NCBI GenBank assembly: GCA_015523575.1
Contig: WAJZ01000126.1
Coordinates: 1-20,186 of the forward strand
Direction of reading: 5' to 3'
DNA: 20,186 bases
DNA from: Candidatus Hestiella acidicharens
GTDB lineage: Archaea > Thermoproteota > Thermoprotei_A > Sulfolobales > Acidilobaceae
This document shows positions 7,227 through 12,236 of the stretch, piece after piece (within the stretch, counting starts at the first letter, position 1; each line of letters opens with the position of its first letter). The translations under genes were made by a program, and so were the position numbers. Under the pieces are notes generated by a model that did not search any database, was not told where the DNA came from, and saw only the letters and a program-made list of their open reading frames with translations.

Positions 7227-7535
7227 CTAAGGGGAAAACATTTCATTATATATGGACTGAAACCTTTTTAGCTCATCTAGTAGTTCATGTATCCATTCAA
7301 GAGGCTCCCTGAACGCCTCTACCCCCTTCTCTATAAAGAACCTCCTGAATTCGTGGTAGCTGGCTATACCGTACCTGCGCCTAGCGTATGCCCTGAACGC
7401 TACATGGAGCAACCCATTATAAACAATCACAGAGGTAACTGGCTCCTATAAAAGGTCAATAACCCTTCTGGCTCTTGGAGTAAGCTCTGTCTCGTAAAGG
7501 ACGTTGTAGAATATGTTTGTATCGACGAATATCAA
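7227..7535 (-). pseudogene. Broken VapC toxin (PIN domain) with amber stop and lost catalytic Glu
   Basis: The frame starts at TTG 7535 inside the last codons of the antitoxin gene. It reads LIFVDTNIFYNVLYETELTP, the first PIN strand with its catalytic Asp. An in-frame TAG at 7446-7448 interrupts it (LL, stop, EPVTS). The same frame then continues SVIVYNGLLHVAFRAYARRRYG to a stop at 7227. In PIN toxins the YN-E-LL position holds the second acidic residue. Here it is Gly (GGG, one base from GAG). The frame also ends after about 102 codons, before the C-terminal Asp-rich part, so the gene is truncated as well. It is a member of the VapBC pair with 7532-7720. Known VapCs are RNases acting on tRNA or rRNA; this one cannot be active. 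Confidence 0.8.
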
Positions 7536-7720
7536 GAACTGTATACCTCCTCCTCGTAGGCCTCCAGCTCCCTAGCTGAAGCCCTGCCCAACACTCCTAC
7601 AAACTTGTCTATGTTAGGCCTCCTCTTTATGATAATAACCTCTTCACCATCCTTAAGATCTACGTTCTCTAACGGCTTTAACACACCCTTCTCATACCTA
7701 GCCCTAACTGCGAAGGACAA
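7532..7720 (-). CDS. VapB-type antitoxin, AF2212/DUF104-like
   Basis: This 62-residue protein has the family pattern SFAVRARYEKGVLKPLENVD followed by LKDGEEVIIIKRR. That is a short beta-strand-rich N-terminus of the AF2212-like antitoxins, with a helical tail (SARELEAYEEEVYSS) that would wrap the PIN toxin. It is intact. The start is TTG 7720, preceded by GGGGGTATAGGA on the minus strand. The stop overlaps the start of the PIN toxin gene by three bases, as is usual for vapBC. The downstream toxin is dead, so this antitoxin is an orphan. It is strongly similar to the antitoxin at 11381-11578 (shared motif ARYE-x-GVLKPLE). Confidence 0.85.
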   Translation of the reverse strand: MSFAVRARYEKGVLKPLENVDLKDGEEVIIIKRRPNIDKFVGVLGRASARELEAYEEEVYSS

Positions 7721-8026: not shown

Positions 8027-8072
8027 AAGTCAGCCTGGATTTGAACCCGGGACCGCCGGCTTAGAAGGCCGA
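8027..8072 (-). pseudogene. 3'-half fragment of tRNA-Arg(UCU), copy 1
   Basis: The minus strand reads TCGGC, the loop CTTCTAA (anticodon UCU), then GCCGG: a fully paired anticodon stem. A variable region and the T arm CCGGG-TTCAAAT-CCAGG (one mismatch) follow. There is no D arm or 5' acceptor strand, and AT-rich DNA (TTTTATATGGTT) lies immediately upstream. The 3' acceptor strand (CTGACTT) is diverged and no CCA is encoded. This is typical of a tRNA 3' end carried as an attachment sequence by an integrating element. It is the most decayed of the three copies. Confidence 0.75.
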
Positions 8073-8333
8073 AACCATATAAAATGGTGTATCCAATCCT
8101 AATTTAAATAGAGACAAAGAGTAAGAATGTTGAGGGAGCTGAAAAAGCTTAAGTTTTGGGTTGGATACATAATTATACCTCCTAATTGGATTGAGCGTAT
8201 AGTGTAAGTGCTATATTTAGATTGTCAGGTGCCTGGGAGGTTACACGCTTCTGTCAAGAATATCTCTGTTTTTCGTTTAGTGATTCCCGATTGTTTCAGA
8301 AGTATATGCTAAGGTTTTTTCTCACATAGTATC
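8073..8333. other. Stretch with TATA box and a 26-codon ORF, no recognised gene
   Basis: ACCAT-ATAAA-ATGGT (8074-8088) is a small inverted repeat beside the tRNA fragment. A plus-strand TATA box (ATTTAAATA, 8102-8110) precedes an ATG at 8127 that encodes MLRELKKLKFWVGYIIIPPN and six more residues, stopping at 8205-8207. Reading on in a neighbouring frame gives further protein-like sequence (FRLSGAWEVTRFCQEYL), so this may be the start of a decayed gene. I do not recognise it. Confidence 0.3.
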
Positions 8334-8954
8334 TCATCCTGCCACGTTGACTCGTGCTCTTGACTTCACTCGCTTAAGTAGTTTTGGCACATTCCTTCTG
8401 GGCAGCAGGTATGTCCAGGGCGCTATTCTTTGACCGCCGAGTTTTTTTATTAGCCCTCCAACGTGGTAGGTTCTGCCCTTAATGGTTACCCTCTTTCCCT
8501 CAAGTAGCACTCTTAGCCTCTCACGGACACACTTATCCCTCGGTGGCTCCACCTTAACTATGATAGGCTTGTCAAGGCTCAGTATCTGTTTCGCATAGAG
8601 TATTCCCTTATAGAGTACTGCCTCCCATACGTAGGGGCCCTCTTCCTCTATGGCTCGTTCTATGGCTCGTGGAATTTTAGTAACTACTTTAGCATCTCTG
8701 AGGGCTTTTGTTAGTATTTCCGGCCTTAATGCTACCTTGTTCCTCACCAAGTAGACATGCATGGAGGCAGTTAATCTATAGTCGAGTAGATGTTTGGACG
8801 TAATGTAGAGGGCCAGATAAACCTTCTCATGCTCACCAAGATTCCCTGCCCAATCAGGCAAGCTGACACATATAATGCAATCACGGCTAGTTTCGTTAAT
8901 ACATAACGTCCAACCTCTAAGGGCAGACACAAAGGCACCAAGGTCAACCCTCAT
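8334..8954 (-). CDS. Uncharacterised protein paired with the nucleotidyltransferase
   Basis: This 206-residue soluble protein starts at ATG 8954 and overlaps the stop of the nucleotidyltransferase gene by four bases (ATGA). The central helical part (ALRDAKVVTKIPRAIERAIE) is followed by a basic C-terminus (GGLIKKLGGQRIAPWTYLLP, then RRNVPKLLKRVKSRARVNVAG) suited to nucleic-acid binding. The N-terminal segment WTLCINETSRDCIICVSL could be a beta hairpin. I do not recognise a family, and no catalytic motif is evident. The tight overlap with a toxin-type nucleotidyltransferase and the location between tRNA fragments suggest a two-gene defence or toxin-antitoxin cassette. Which partner would be the toxin is unknown. 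Confidence 0.65.
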   Translation of the reverse strand: MRVDLGAFVSALRGWTLCINETSRDCIICVSLPDWAGNLGEHEKVYLALYITSKHLLDYRLTASMHVYLVRNKVALRPEILTKALRDAKVVTKIPRAIERAIEEEGPYVWEAVLYKGILYAKQILSLDKPIIVKVEPPRDKCVRERLRVLLEGKRVTIKGRTYHVGGLIKKLGGQRIAPWTYLLPRRNVPKLLKRVKSRARVNVAG

Positions 8955-9562
8955 TTAGTATCACCCTCTCTCTTTGCCAGAAACATTTCATTAATGAAGG
9001 CCTCTACCCGCCTCCTCGCAACCATGTACCTTGAAGGCTCTACATCACTGGCGATGCTCCTAAGAAGATTACGTATGGTCTGAGTATTAACTACAATACC
9101 CATTACCTTAATGGTAGGAGCTAAGTGCTCAATAGATGAGTCTAGGGCTTTAGCTACTAGTGCTGCATGCCCCTCAAGCACTCTCAGCCCTTCAACCATT
9201 ACCACATGTCTAAGTAAAGTTCTGGGAACGAAGAAGTCATGAATAGGGTATACAATTTCTACGGGTTTGCCTGCCTCTATGTAGAAGCCGCCCGACTCCG
9301 ACCTCCCAACACTAAGACCGAGGGCCAGCATTCTCTCCTCAACCCTCTCATCAAACACAACCATAGGCTCGTCTACATATATGTCAACATCTTTAGTTTC
9401 GTCCAAGTATGTAGGTGGAAGCCAGCCCTGAACTATCAATGCGTAGGTATCAACAATCACTGGTTCATAACCCAGGTGCTCAAGCTCCAAAAAGATGCTT
9501 CTAATGGTTCTCTCCAAACCACTCACACTCTCATCCCACATAATATTTTCTGCCACCCGCAT
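8951..9562 (-). CDS. Nucleotidyltransferase-fold protein in a two-gene cassette
   Basis: This protein of about 203 residues has the segment VIVDTYALIVQGWLPPTYLD followed by ETKDVDIYVDEP. The second is the Asp-x-Asp strand of nucleotidyltransferases; the usual GGS turn is replaced by the VQGW segment, so activity is not guaranteed. A helical C-terminus (LLRSIASDVEPSRYMVARRR) follows. The open frame extends upstream to an ATG at 9703, but that extension enters remnant DNA. I prefer ATG 9562 (MRVAENIMWDES), or ATG 9541 with GGGTGG upstream. It is coupled by a four-base overlap to the gene at 8334-8954. It differs from the nucleotidyltransferase at 1662-2357 and is not a recent duplicate of it. 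Confidence 0.65.
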   Translation of the reverse strand: MRVAENIMWDESVSGLERTIRSIFLELEHLGYEPVIVDTYALIVQGWLPPTYLDETKDVDIYVDEPMVVFDERVEERMLALGLSVGRSESGGFYIEAGKPVEIVYPIHDFFVPRTLLRHVVMVEGLRVLEGHAALVAKALDSSIEHLAPTIKVMGIVVNTQTIRNLLRSIASDVEPSRYMVARRRVEAFINEMFLAKREGDTK

Positions 9563-9711
9563 ATAACAGTTATGCCTTCTCTCCACCCAAAAGGTTGTAA
9601 TCCCGTAAATGTAGATGGAGACCAACAAGACACTACCAGCTAATAAAGGACGACATCCTAAGATATAGTATTTTGCCTTCGGAGTCTCTGAATCACCATC
9701 CATTTCCCGTC

Positions 9712-9822
9712 CTAGGTCGTCATAGGTCTCTCTAGGATGGGTTGTGCCTCATCCCCATGATTCATTGTGGCTGCAAGCCACTCCACGCGGGGGTTATGGG
9801 CACCCTTCGGGGCTGATGGAAT
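9712..9822 (-). pseudogene. Possible tnpB 3'-end remnant abutting MITE copy 2
   Basis: The minus strand from 9822 reads IPSAPKGAHNPRVEWLAATM then NHGDEAQPILERPMTT and a TAG at 9712-9714. It is GC-rich compared with its surroundings. Pro/Gly-rich tails ending in MN-x-GDEA-like strings are common at the C-termini of archaeal TnpB proteins, so this may be the 3' end of a second IS200/IS605-family element. Its 5' side is replaced by MITE copy 2. No catalytic residues remain and the assignment is tentative. Confidence 0.3.
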
Positions 9823-10007
9823 AACCGTTTTAGTATCCGCTACTTTTGAAACTTTTGAAATAATCGTAGCGGATAACCTTTCAGCCTCTCATCTTCATTG
9901 GCTGGCTTTCGGGGGAAGTAGAACTCCCAACATCTTCAGAGCTACCCTATAATCATGACCATCTTTGGAAAATATTAAATGTTTCATTTATTGCTATCTA
10001 TGAAACA
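9823..10007 (-). mobile_element. IS200/IS605-derived MITE, copy 2 (intergenic)
   Basis: This is a 185-base element with the same ends as copy 1 (AACCG at 9823, GAAACA at 10007). The left-end hairpin is perfect here: TGTTTCAT (9980-9987) pairs with ATGAAACA (10000-10007). The right-end hairpin is ATCCGCTAC (9835-9843), a 22-base loop identical to that of copy 1, and GTAGCGGAT (9866-9874). The interior minus reading HDYRVALKMLGVLLPP again resembles a TnpB C-terminus, here degraded. The bases 5' of the left end on the minus strand are AGGGGC. It lies between the possible tnpB remnant and tRNA fragment 2. Confidence 0.8.
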
Positions 10008-10206
10008 GCCCCTACATCTGTGGGTCAACACCAAAAACAAGATAATCCGCACAGACCCATAAAAACCTTTATTCCAGAAACTGCTGACTACCCTAACATT
10101 ATTTTGTTATATTTCAAGCTGTGCCCAATTCCAACAGTTTTTAATCCCACCTGACAGTAAACCTATCGGACAGAGACAACCAATGACTTATATATGGAGT
10201 TTTGTA
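10008..10206. other. Non-coding stretch between MITE copy 2 and tRNA fragment 2
   Basis: No gene is visible. Short complementary strings TGGGTC and GACCCA (about 10019-10060) could form a long-range hairpin. A plus-strand TATA-like CTTATATATGG (about 10188-10198) points into the antisense of the tRNA fragment and may be fortuitous. Confidence 0.3.
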
Positions 10207-10256
10207 TGGTGGCCCGCCAGGATTTGGACCCGCGACAACCGGGCTTAGAAGGCCAG
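10207..10256 (-). pseudogene. 3'-half fragment of tRNA-Arg(UCU), copy 2
   Basis: The minus strand reads CTGGC, loop CTTCTAA (UCU anticodon), GCCCG (one mismatch in the stem), the variable region, T arm GCGGG-TCCAAAT-CCTGG, a shortened acceptor strand and an encoded CCA (10207-10209). The T loop has one substitution (TCC for TTC). There is no 5' half; the upstream bases are AT-rich (TATTTAAG). The flank after CCA (TACAAAAC) matches the flank after the intact tRNA-Arg at 12159, so the duplicated sequence extends past the gene. Confidence 0.75.
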
Positions 10257-10403
10257 CACTTAAATACTTCATCCCATAGCTCTCCATTGCTTTGGGGCAA
10301 CTTCTAATCTATTTTATATTCTATTATCCTATAGGGTAATACATGGGACACGTTATCTTAAGCTGTAAGGCTATAAGGACTTAAGGGTTGTTATGTATTA
10401 GTA

Positions 10404-10661
10404 GTGGTTGAGGGAGGGATGTTGTCTCGTGAGGTAGTTGTTAAGGTTAAGGTACCTTCTCATTATGTTGGAGACGTTGAGAAGGATGTCAGGCTAGCCT
10501 ATGCTGTTGACTTATTCCTTAGAGGTGTTGTTAGTGTTGAGCGTGCAGCCGAGCTAGCTGGGATGAGCCTATATGACTTCCTTGTAGAGCTTCGTAAGAG
10601 GGGGATACAAGCCTACCCTTATAGTGATGAAGAGCTCCAAGAGGAGCTAGGGATTGAGTAA
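10404..10661 (+). CDS. UPF0175-family antitoxin (VapB-like)
   Basis: This protein of up to 85 residues has the UPF0175 pattern: a polar N-terminus (VVVKVKVPSHYVGDVEKDVR) and then a helix-turn-helix segment (LFLRGVVSVERAAELAGMSL, YDFLVELRKRGI) ending in a conserved Tyr-Pro-Tyr near the C-terminus. Members act as antitoxins and autoregulators for DUF3368 PIN toxins, exactly the gene that follows with an overlap of eight bases. The start may be GTG 10404, ATG 10419 or TTG 10422. The GAGGGAGGG run (10410-10418) is a strong ribosome site for a start at or after 10422, so the mature protein is probably 79 residues. The frame is intact although the toxin is not. Confidence 0.85.
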   Translation: MVEGGMLSREVVVKVKVPSHYVGDVEKDVRLAYAVDLFLRGVVSVERAAELAGMSLYDFLVELRKRGIQAYPYSDEELQEELGIE

Positions 10662-11163
10662 TAAGGCGAACCACTGCCTAGTACTAGATTCCAGCGCCAT
10701 AATAGCACTTGCAGAGGTAAATATGGCAGACATTATAGAAGCATTTGGTATGGAGATAATTGTACCTCATGAAGCCTACTAGGAGGTCGTAGTTAAGGGT
10801 TATGGTAGACCTGGCTCAAGGGAGCTAGAGGGTCTTGTAAGCCAAGACAAAATAAAAGTTTTGTCGCCACGGGATAGGACACTGGTAGAGGCCCTTCACG
10901 ATCCTTTAGGTATGGGTGAGTCGGAGGCAATAGCATTAGCAGTTGAGCATAACTGTACAGTTATCATAGACTATAGAATTGTAAGGCTTAAAGCGAAATC
11001 CATGAGACTGAAAGTTATAGGTACGATAGGCCTCTTGCGACTAGCCTATGACAAAGGCCTTCTCAATAAAAGCAAACTAGCTCAAGCACTAAGGGAGCTA
11101 AAAGAACATGGGTTCAAAGTATCTGATGAGATAATAAACGGAGTCCTAAAGAGGCTAAAGTAG
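10654..11163 (+). pseudogene. DUF3368 PIN-domain toxin (VapC-like) with one in-frame amber stop
   Basis: From TTG 10654 the frame reads NHCLVLDSSAIIALAEVNMA (first catalytic Asp in LDSS), then IIVPHEAY. It is stopped by TAG at 10780-10782 (codon 43) and continues without further lesion EVVVKGYGRPGSRELEGL, GMGESEAIALAVEHNC, VIGTIGLLRLAYDKGLL and FKVSDEIINGVLKRL to 11163. These blocks occur in the order and spacing of DUF3368 toxins, and 170 codons is the normal length. The usual LDD motif before the conserved Arg is IDY here, a possible further loss. Family members usually have Glu or a similar residue where the TAG lies. A single base change therefore separates this from a full-length frame. 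It is partnered with the antitoxin at 10404-10661. Confidence 0.85.
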
Positions 11164-11175
11164 GCTTAACAAAAA

Positions 11176-11226
11176 TGGCGGGCCCGCCGGGATTTGAACC
11201 CACGACAACCGGGCTTAGAAGGCCAG
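11176..11226 (-). pseudogene. 3'-half fragment of tRNA-Arg(UCU), copy 3
   Basis: The minus strand has CTGGC, loop CTTCTAA (UCU), GCCCG, variable region, T arm GTGGG-TTCAAAT-CCCGG, acceptor strand CGGGCCC, discriminator G and encoded CCA (11176-11178). Its last 22 bases are identical to the 3' end of the intact tRNA-Arg(GCG) at 12159-12236. There is no D arm or 5' acceptor strand; TTTATATAG precedes the anticodon stem directly. It lies about 970 bases from fragment 2 and about 980 bases from the intact tRNA. Confidence 0.78.
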
Positions 11227-11380
11227 AACTATATAAAGAAGGTTATGTTTCCTCATGGGTTAAATGTAACATATCCGTATGCATGATAATTAATTTTGTT
11301 CCGTAAGGATGATAATGGGTGCAACATCCAAAAGTAAAAGCTTAGAGGCCTAAACTCTCTTATTATTATGGGGAATTAGG

Positions 11381-11578
11381 TTGTCTAAAGCCATCAAAGC
11401 TAGATATGAGAGAGGCGTCCTGAAGCCTCTAGAACCGTTGGAGCTTAGGGAAGGAGAAGAGGTGAGGATAAAGATAGAGAGGAGCCTTAGGGAGAAGCTG
11501 AGGGACCTCATCGGAGTGCTTGGTAAGTCTAGCGAGGAGGAACTCAAGAGATACTTGGAGGAGGCCTGGCGGCAGTGA
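11381..11578 (+). CDS. VapB-type antitoxin, AF2212/DUF104-like
   Basis: This 65-residue protein has the pattern IKARYERGVLKPLEPLEL, REGEEVRIKIERS and a helical tail ending in ELKRYLEEAWRQ. It is the intact antitoxin of the vapBC pair with 11575-12017; start and stop overlap as GTGA. The start is TTG 11381, six bases after GGGGAATTAGG. It is a clear relative of the antitoxin at 7532-7720 but not a recent copy: the helical tails differ. AF2212-like proteins bind their operon and neutralise the PIN RNase. The toxin is frameshifted, so this gene is probably an orphan under decay or is kept as an anti-addiction factor. Confidence 0.87.
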   Translation: MSKAIKARYERGVLKPLEPLELREGEEVRIKIERSLREKLRDLIGVLGKSSEEELKRYLEEAWRQ

Positions 11579-12017
11579 TTCTCATAGACACAAACGTGCT
11601 CTATCACATACTCCATAAAACGCCCCGAACAGAGGAAGCGCTAACCTTGTTAGAGAAGAACCCCAGAGACTATGCAGTGGACACTATGTACACAACGAGA
11701 TAATCTATACCTCAACACTACACTACCTAGAGTACAAACATGGAGTGAAAGGAACATACTCGGCCAGGAAATGGATAAAGAAACATGGATATCCCCAAGA
11801 GGTAATACATGCAATTAGAGAACTGACCAGAAGGCTAAACATAAAGCTGATATCTAGCACATATGCCGAGAAAGATCTTTACAAGGCACTAATCGAATAC
11901 AGAATCCTACCGAGCGATGCAATAATAGCGCTTATCTGCAAGCACTATGGTATAGACACTATTCTAACTTTTGATGAGGATCTCAAGAAGGTGTCATGGC
12001 TAAAAGTAATCCCCTAG
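11575..12017 (+). pseudogene. VapC toxin (PIN domain) with a single one-base frameshift
   Basis: From GTG 11575 the frame reads ILIDTNVLYHILHKTPRTEE and DYAVDTM. It then loses one base at 11688-11691 (ATG TAC instead of an expected ATG GTA CAC) and hits TAA. In the next frame the protein continues HNEIIYTSTLHYLEYKHG, then LPSDAIIALICKHYGIDTIL and TFDEDLKKV to 12017. All four PIN acidic positions are present across the two frames (Asp in IDTN, Glu in HNE, Asp in PSDA, Asp in TFDED). The damage is therefore a single deletion in an otherwise complete gene of about 148 codons. It could also be a sequencing error or a frameshifted gene, but the neighbouring toxins are broken too. Confidence 0.85.
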
Positions 12018-12158
12018 AACGTAAATAAATCTAGGAACGTCATCTGTTGCATTATATAAGTATGATTATCAGATTTGTAAGAGCTTCAGCGCAGTTTCGC
12101 AGTTCCAGAAACAACATGTTCTACACTTAGATTAATGATAATTTAGATAGGTTTTGTA

Positions 12159-12236
12159 TGGCGGGCCCGCCGGGATTTGAACCCGGGACCTCTGGCTCCG
12201 CAGGCCAGCGCTCTATCCTAGCTGAGCTACGGGCCC
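12159..12236 (-). tRNA. tRNA-Arg (anticodon GCG), CCA encoded
   Basis: Complete cloverleaf on the minus strand. Acceptor GGGCCCG (from 12236) pairs with CGGGCCC (12163-12169). D stem GCTC/GAGC. Anticodon stem CTGGC/GCCAG with loop CTGCGGA, anticodon GCG at 12199-12201. T arm CCGGG-TTCAAAT-CCCGG. Discriminator G, followed by an encoded CCA (12159-12161). No intron. It decodes CGC/CGU arginine codons. Its 3' end is shared with the fragments at 10207 and 11176, so it probably marks the edge of the accessory island, though those fragments carry a UCU anticodon loop. Confidence 0.95.

Follow-up and report, generated by a model that had tools for sequence, protein, structure and literature searches.

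In the archaeon Candidatus Hestiella acidicharens (Acidilobaceae), an intact tRNA-Arg(GCG) gene is followed by a row of small toxin-antitoxin (TA) operons punctuated by 3' halves of tRNA-Arg genes, and we read this row as an array of non-autonomous TA cassettes that came in through recombination in tRNA 3' halves, with tyrosine integrases supplied in trans as possible agents. We put the probability of this reading at about 0.7. The stretch of DNA that was analysed (hereafter the window) has 20,186 nucleotides and is the whole of contig WAJZ01000126.1 (C126) of the draft genome GCA_015523575.1 (G000), which comprises 1.06 Mb and is 76% complete. Seen directly are the units themselves, the orientation that prevails among them, one site that is empty in a relative, and differences between genomes whose boundaries coincide with either end of the tRNA half.

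The initial annotation of this DNA had described three same-strand tRNA-Arg 3' halves behind the intact tRNA-Arg(GCG), and that layout stands: the tRNA is recognized by ARAGORN and Rfam, and the halves, which we call F3, F2 and F1, are recognized by a fragment profile at 6.7e-8, 1.1e-4 and 4.0e-7, respectively, the profile having been built partly from the fragments that it then scores. Rfam at E<=1 reported the intact tRNA in the window and no fragment. The tRNA and all three halves are on the minus strand, with F3, F2 and F1 lying in the tRNA's 3' direction (Table 1); as originally described, the halves start at the anticodon arm and span the T arm, and two of them (F2 and F3) end in encoded CCA. 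Two gene pairs, one of an AF2212-like antitoxin and a PIN-domain toxin and the other of the UPF0175 and DUF3368 families, are transcribed toward the tRNA, and a nucleotidyltransferase-like pair runs the opposite way.

The empty site is found in a congener, G002, whose contig C117 aligns with the window at 93-98%. Its tRNA-Arg(GCG) comes directly after the UPF0175/DUF3368 pair and the AF2212/PIN unit is absent; the 3' flank of its tRNA is the same as the flank of F3 in the window, save for a single 9-nt indel at the end of the gene, and on the 5' side it has the flank of the window's tRNA. The unit that is present in one genome and absent from the other measures ~983 bp, and both of its junctions fall in the same ~27 identical bases, from the T arm to the CCA. 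Because the unit is missing from G002 and the tRNA of G002 carries the flank of F3, the exchange can be placed within these ~27 bases of the tRNA 3' half. The comparison of relatives that had been proposed at the outset thus turned up a genome from which precisely one cassette is missing and in which the boundary falls within the tRNA 3' half.

The UPF0175/DUF3368 unit recurs in a Desulfurococcales metagenome-assembled genome (MAG), at locus L291, with 78% identity over 996 nt. Homology with the window starts at F2, spans one tRNA half to the next and stops there, and the cassette has a different host in the two archaea: tRNA-Arg(CCG), with a CCG-type fragment, in L291 versus tRNA-Arg(GCG) in the window. 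Such fragment-to-fragment boundaries had been foreseen in the initial annotation. Its further claim, that cassettes accreted serially at the tRNA, is supported for the AF2212/PIN and UPF0175/DUF3368 units and is not supported for the stretch that contains the nucleotidyltransferase pair and a miniature inverted-repeat transposable element, where the genes point in the opposite direction, F1 has lost its acceptor end, and synteny with G002 is lost at two points, 8021 (at F1) and 10328 (72 bp past F2). The nucleotidyltransferase pair was rejected as a cassette on account of its orientation and breakpoints. The second of these breaks reflects a DUF3368 cassette in G002 that has lost F2 and the first part of its leader, so that homology begins at window position 10328.

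Another contig of G002, C72 (L119, 7400-7937), has a right end that joins DNA homologous to window position ~15741 to an AF2212 gene and also holds an Arg(UCG)-type fragment and the end of a DUF3368 gene, at the same CCA flank as the array site; the array site may have a second allele here, the segment may be inverted, or the contig may be chimeric. Two further congeners without AF2212 matches, G003 and G004, lose synteny exactly at the 3' end of tRNA-Arg(GCG) (L121 9882 versus L122).

The same boundaries emerge when many loci are compared. Among 143 deduplicated loci, homologous segments of at least 500 nt and 78-99.5% identity had 171 of their 802 ends within 10 nt of a tRNA half, as compared to a mean of 11.6 and a maximum of 21 in 50 uniform placements; ends from related pairs are not independent, and when each pair was counted once and 73 ends at contig edges were dropped, 91 of 401 ends lay at tRNA halves. 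On the leader side, 29 of 50 ends fall at -2 to +5 from the CCA, and on the flank side 31 of 41 fall at -57 to -44, i.e., at the anticodon end. Leader-side and flank-side homologies therefore overlap by the ~50-nt tRNA half, as predicted by exchange at that site. Segments that run from tRNA half to tRNA half in the query make up 9 of the 268 of 600-6000 nt, and 5 of the 9 do so in the subject as well. The expectation that synteny would break at the fragments is in this way borne out across many loci, with breaks piling up at fragment ends.

How common the arrangement is was gauged mainly from AF2212 genes. Since the loci were gathered mostly through this family, the proportions of TA families in them are biased. 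The 30 genomes of the family contain 125 AF2212 genes, and 17 of the 30 have any. Sixteen of these matches were dropped (11 not fetched, 5 with a short upstream region); among the 109 that were scored, 52 have an antisense tRNA 3' half upstream (score of at least 40), whereas the best of 10 block shuffles gave 0 of 109; in 44 of 55 scored antisense cases, 154-172 nt separate the anticodon end of the half from the start of the antitoxin gene. For a set of 78 named loci, 7 of which were dropped for short upstream sequence, the antisense arrangement was found in 37 of 71 testable AF2212 genes. A profile search of 162 loci (1.62 Mb) returned 140 distinct fragments of at least 15 bits outside the tRNAs found by ARAGORN, in related MAGs and in two complete Aeropyrum-type genomes; for four of the 140, a contig end is no more than 25 nt away, and these may be truncated tRNAs. 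The reversed sequences of the same loci yielded 0 matches at 10 bits or more, and a full 5' acceptor partner within 130 nt was found for none of the 140 fragments. Where a same-strand tRNA lies within 15 kb of a fragment (80 fragments), it is upstream only in 71 cases, downstream only in 7 and on both sides in 2.

Units recur with a characteristic size and a varied cargo. Distances between neighbouring sites in 23 array loci are 0.8-1.05 kb in 27 of 43 cases. Besides AF2212/PIN, the units carry UPF0175/DUF3368, DUF433 with DUF5615, DUF2283 with DUF4258, a MazE-like gene with a PIN-like gene (PIN-like by reading) and others; first genes other than AF2212 start ~155-250 nt from the fragment, and adjacent units carry different TA families or subtypes rather than duplicates. 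PF01850 matched 45 of the 60 proteins scanned, which were 59 of 70 distinct second genes plus one nucleotidyltransferase. By these domain matches the units appear to be type II TA systems of VapBC-like plan, with an antitoxin family followed by a PIN-type toxin in one operon.

A fragment and the tRNA nearest upstream of it have the same anticodon in 35 of 62 cases (mean 12.0 and maximum 21 on permutation). Anticodons were read by pattern, and because the loose reading misread some, F3 included, a stricter reading was also made, which gave 35 of 53 with 17 unreadable (permuted mean 13.3, maximum 22). A match of isoacceptors is expected where exchange is favoured by identity between tRNA halves, or where the half already at the site has been duplicated. 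Recurrent T-loop variants (e.g., TCTCTAAT, CTGGAAAT and TCCATGAAT) were seen in fragments of L180, L172, L170 and L173; they are common to different cassettes and genomes, as if inherited with cassette lineages.

Arrays are also present in two complete genomes of Aeropyrum type, G016 (1,669,696 bp) and G040 (1,595,994 bp); G045 is of the same genus. At tRNA-Arg(CCG) and tRNA-Arg(TCG), G016 and G040 align at 76% and 95%, respectively, up to 5 bases or fewer from the tRNA 3' end, and beyond it the two genomes carry different arrays at both loci, with five fragments in G016 and four in G040 behind the first tRNA (CCG). A genome-wide search, which scored 150 of 1205 first-look candidates in G016 and 150 of 1153 in G040, found the same fragments and further ones behind the second tRNA; one fragment, at position 108 of G016, would belong to an array that crosses the start of the circular record.

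The cassettes have a leader in common. Its plan is a TATA box followed by a repeat, W, the reverse complement of W ~22 bp on, and the same again ~50 bp further (e.g., L138 7115-7278). We distinguish three classes of W, GTTTCC (I), GTTGCA (II) and GTCCCA (III), and 85 of 124 distinct leaders fit this plan with at most 3 mismatches in 18 bases, against 0.5 in shuffles, the classes having been defined after the leaders were inspected. The leader of F3 is assigned by script to class II with 4 of 18 mismatches, and that of F2 to class I with 5 of 18 mismatches, not to the class III seen by eye. The leader of F1 carries a different repeat, GTATCC (by eye), part of which is also found in L206 and L314, and F1 may be the stump of a cassette with lost genes. 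The leader is not tied to the antitoxin, because all three classes were seen within a single AF2212 cluster of 24 members (single linkage, 65% identity). The fragment beside a class I leader is mostly UCG (20 of 39) and that beside a class II leader mostly CCG or GCG (17 of 36); class III leaders accompany CCG as well as UCG fragments (8 and 7 of 21). The repeats are either candidate operators or candidate accessory sites of a recombinase.

The source of the window's halves was examined in the part from anticodon to variable region. There F1 is identical (22/22) to a tRNA of another genus (G018 and G005) that we read as an intron-bearing tRNA-Arg(UCU) and that ARAGORN labels Phe. Against the UCU gene of the congeners F1 scores 16/22, and F2 and F3 score 18/22 against both UCU references; against the host GCG tRNA the values are 17/22, 15/22 and 15/22 for F1, F2 and F3. 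No half matches the host tRNA in this part, which implies that the anticodon part came with the cassettes or with an older array. To judge from these 22 bases, a foreign source is indicated for F1 only; no source is assigned to F2 and F3, and the notion that all three are foreign UCU halves was dropped. An intact tRNA-Arg(UCU) is present in four congeners, and none is among the tRNAs found in the incomplete assembly of the window genome. F2 and the intact tRNA share a short flank after the CCA (TACAAAAC), as had been pointed out initially. The likeness is real, and we give it little weight because flanks after the CCA are weakly alike in fragments and tRNAs generally; a conserved motif at this place was considered and rejected, there being a weak C/A bias only, alike in intact tRNAs.

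Table 1. Features of the tRNA-Arg(GCG) array and tRNA-adjacent recombinase genes. Positions refer to the window unless a locus is named.
Feature	Position	Strand	Evidence and remarks
Intact tRNA-Arg(GCG)	12159..12236	-	ARAGORN and Rfam, 69.9 bits; host attachment site, 5' end of array
F3, tRNA-Arg(UCU)-type 3' half, anticodon arm to encoded CCA	11176..11226	-	Bounds AF2212/PIN cassette
F2, tRNA-Arg(UCU)-type 3' half, anticodon arm to encoded CCA	10207..10256	-	Bounds UPF0175/DUF3368 cassette
F1, decayed tRNA-Arg(UCU)-type 3' half	about 8027..8080	-	Anticodon and T arms kept; acceptor end and CCA lost
AF2212-like antitoxin gene (PF01954)	11381..11578	+	Pfam 7.4e-23
PIN-domain toxin gene, frameshifted	11581..12017	+	Open 3' part 11745-12017: PF01850 4.3e-8
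UPF0175 antitoxin gene (PF03683)	10404..10661	+	Pfam 4.9e-16
DUF3368 (PIN-like) toxin gene, in-frame stop	10666..11163	+	Open part: PF11848 1.1e-9
TATA-like box of AF2212 operon, abuts anticodon end of F3	11230..11237	+	By eye; matches leader consensus arrangement
AF2212 cassette leader	11238..11380	+	Degenerate class II repeats GTTATG 11242, TGTAAC 11265, TGCAAC 11320 (by eye)
UPF0175 cassette TATA-like box and leader	10260..10403	+	Class III-like repeats ATCCCA 10271, TGGGGC 10293, TGGGAC 10344 (by eye)
Nucleotidyltransferase-like pair	8334..9703	-	DUF2204-like 0.0056, below cut-off; partner without Pfam match; not in cassette orientation
tRNA-adjacent recombinase genes	L316 1108-2633; L317 2748-4316; L318 1517-3046; L319 1058-2631; L320 2016-3515		tRNAs Val (three), Thr, Gly

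By their reading frames, both toxin genes are broken in the window assembly (Table 1); the DUF3368 gene is intact in G002 (open reading frame 8819-9325). A further AF2212-like antitoxin gene lies on the minus strand of the window, at 7532-7720 and 7227-7430, and F1 is ~325 nt upstream of it in the sense direction, an arrangement opposite to that of the array units. Five loci of tRNA-Thr(TGT) type or Val type (L211 in G011:C80, L212 in G020:C1, L213 in G045:C21, L226 in G046:C41 and L227 in G040:C1) have an AF2212 gene that begins immediately after the intact tRNA and points away from it, contrary to the orientation in the Arg arrays, and the fragment lies further on. In G002, L085 4125-6060 holds a resolvase-like and transposase-like gene pair, IS607-like by reading, and there is none at the matching position of the window, ~7270.

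As we envisage it, a unit would consist of a tRNA 3' half in antisense to the operon, a TATA box, a leader with three spaced repeats, an antitoxin gene and a toxin gene, and would typically measure 0.8-1.05 kb. It would enter by recombination of its tRNA 3' half with that of a tRNA gene or with an earlier fragment; the tRNA would stay whole and a fragment would remain at the far end, so that units would stack behind the tRNA. The cassette would probably pass through a circle, the enzyme would be a site-specific tyrosine recombinase, supplied in trans by a tRNA-adjacent integrase family or by the host as Xer, and the TA genes may serve as retention or defence modules. A tyrosine recombinase family of 407-467 aa, with PF00589 matches (Pfam was rescanned for three of the five), is encoded directly 3' of and co-directionally with intact tRNAs in five genomes. 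It is kept as a candidate only, and rejected as the established enzyme of the arrays, because it was not found in four array genomes, G040, G010, G011 and G017; the Phage_integrase search gave a single Xer-like match in G010 and none in G011. In G016 there is, ~38 kb farther on (580,699), a second 3' half with the same score, as expected for an integrated element. The window's own genome has a weak integrase-like match (G000:C34, L321) beside a phage-repressor-like gene, which by reading looks like bacterial contamination. A more specific version of the proposal, which we entertain tentatively and with more doubt than confidence, is that the Desulfurococcales and Acidilobaceae have a dedicated cassette system that is anchored at tRNAs and corresponds to the integron. 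Exchange would take place at the tRNA 3' half; the leader, whose three repeats covary and go partly with the target isoacceptor and not with the antitoxin subtype, would be the accessory site of the trans-acting recombinase; and the TA operons would be an interchangeable cargo that makes the row self-retaining.

A number of observations weigh against the insertion of cassettes at tRNA halves. Most ends of homologous segments (310/401) lie elsewhere than at tRNA halves; 57 of the 109 scored AF2212 genes are without a detectable antisense fragment, as are 34 of the 71 in the named-loci set; and 10 of the 109 have an upstream tRNA match in the sense direction, several of them at Thr and Val loci, which means that in these cases transcription of the operon is directed away from the tRNA and the unit is built differently. 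Neighbouring sites are 1.1-2.6 kb apart in 16 of 43 cases, some of them holding two TA pairs. A conserved T-arm hairpin, considered as a structural site, was rejected since stem and loop change equally (0.235 vs 0.219 changes per site, ungapped, in 99 fragments); among T-stem pairs, 16 of 25 changed on both sides still pair and 142 of 183 one-sided changes break pairing. Chimeric fragments exist, such as that of L134 (Thr anticodon and Arg acceptor, behind tRNA-Arg(CCG)), which are hard to derive from a single conservative crossover at an intact tRNA and need exchange with an older fragment or more than one event. The array-bearing genomes G040 and G017, both 99% complete, have one Phage_integrase match each, Xer-like by score. 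Recombination was not observed and the circle was not seen; AF2212 had no match in plasmids or viral contigs, the integrase had none in phages or viral contigs, and viral or plasmid carriers of the cassettes were set aside after these searches.

The strongest competitor, which we consider unlikely, is general homologous or microhomology recombination between the ~50-bp tRNA repeats, with no site-specific enzyme and with arrays as by-products of unequal exchange. It would accommodate G040 and G017, where no second integrase was found, the fragments that are at times identical within one array (L172, L180 and L086), as unequal exchange would give, and the switch between G002 and the window, which can fall anywhere in the shared stretch. 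It does not lead one to expect that adjacent units differ in TA family or subtype, and the isoacceptor match together with the recurring unit geometry points to a defined site; moreover, the anticodon part of F3 is not that of the host tRNA and was therefore brought by a cassette or an older array. Selection on the tRNA half as a regulatory part of the TA operon (a promoter element, an insulator or an antisense source), with movement secondary, is improbable: the near-constant distance from the anticodon end to the antitoxin start and the abutting TATA box of the leader consensus agree with such a role, but many fragments are decayed without keeping the T-stem, about half of the AF2212 genes do without a fragment, and exchange boundaries lie at both ends of the half.

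Two RNA-centred explanations have far less to commend them. PIN toxins of the VapC type cut tRNA near the anticodon loop, where the fragments start, and toxin-cut 3' halves might have been converted to DNA along an RNA-based pathway and linked to TA operons; we regard this as very improbable, as the exchange also took in DNA beyond the CCA and the junction at the empty site is that of ordinary DNA. That the halves are genes for a split, trans-spliced tRNA-Arg(UCU) is less credible still. They do begin in the anticodon arm with TATA-like boxes beside them, but F1 is without an acceptor end, the TATA boxes fit the TA operons, and about 140 similar halves of several isoacceptors occur in related loci. 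Split or permuted tRNA genes were accordingly rejected on the strength of the intact tRNA-Arg(UCU) in the four congeners, the window genome being too incomplete to tell by itself.

The insertion of TA cassettes at tRNA halves invites comparison with several known systems. In chromosomal (super)integrons, short cassettes are lined up in one orientation with a recombination site as their boundary, and many of the cassettes are TA modules that bring a promoter of their own; the tRNA-half arrays resemble them in being made of discrete units exchanged at a recombination site. They differ in that the sites are tRNA 3' halves and the anchor is a tRNA gene, in that there is no integrase (IntI) beside the arrays examined, the lone Xer-like match of G040 and G017 not being at the array, and in that the site has no conserved hairpin to compare with the folded structure of attC, given that the T-stem of the fragments changes as fast as the T-loop. 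The integron-like character first proposed thus survives as a description of behaviour and fails on the two integron features that were tested, an adjacent integrase and a conserved folded site. Archaeal elements of the SSV/pNOB8 type use a tRNA 3' half as attachment site. The arrays share with tRNA-integrating elements (SSV, pNOB8, pTN3) a tRNA 3' half as the site, with an intact tRNA at one end and a fragment at the other; those elements encode their own integrase, whereas array units hold ~1 kb with two small TA-type genes and no integrase. Cis-mobilizable elements (CIMEs) are flanked by attachment (att) sites, lack a recombinase and are mobilized by one acting in trans or by accretion, and the arrays are like them in their att-type bounds (seen in the ends of homologous segments), their freedom from recombinases and their probable tandem accretion, and unlike them in being recurring ~1-kb units with a shared leader, at tRNA genes and in archaea. 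We class the array with the integrative elements that target tRNAs, as a variant whose behaviour is that of a row of integron cassettes.

Parts of this picture are already known, as far as the available portions of the sources go: the pTN3 integrase recombines tRNA genes (PMC5495485), arrays arise from re-use of one site or accretion of elements at it (PMC6563490), integrative elements of the Thermococcaceae (~9-23 kb) leave tRNA fragments on integration (PMC9897764), and Sulfolobus has many VapBC-type TA pairs that are horizontally moved and flanked by degenerate insertion sequence copies, rows bounded by tRNA halves not being described in the portion available (PMC3718332). A literature search, to which most subscription journals were out of reach, found no account of rows of ~1-kb TA cassettes bounded by tRNA halves and sharing a common leader.

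If the reading is true, these archaea would have gene-cassette behaviour without an integron, present also in complete Aeropyrum-type genomes, and there would be a concrete source for many of their TA loci and stray tRNA halves. It would also make the role of a tRNA-targeting or Xer tyrosine recombinase in the shuffling of ~1-kb TA cassettes directly testable in a culturable hyperthermophile.

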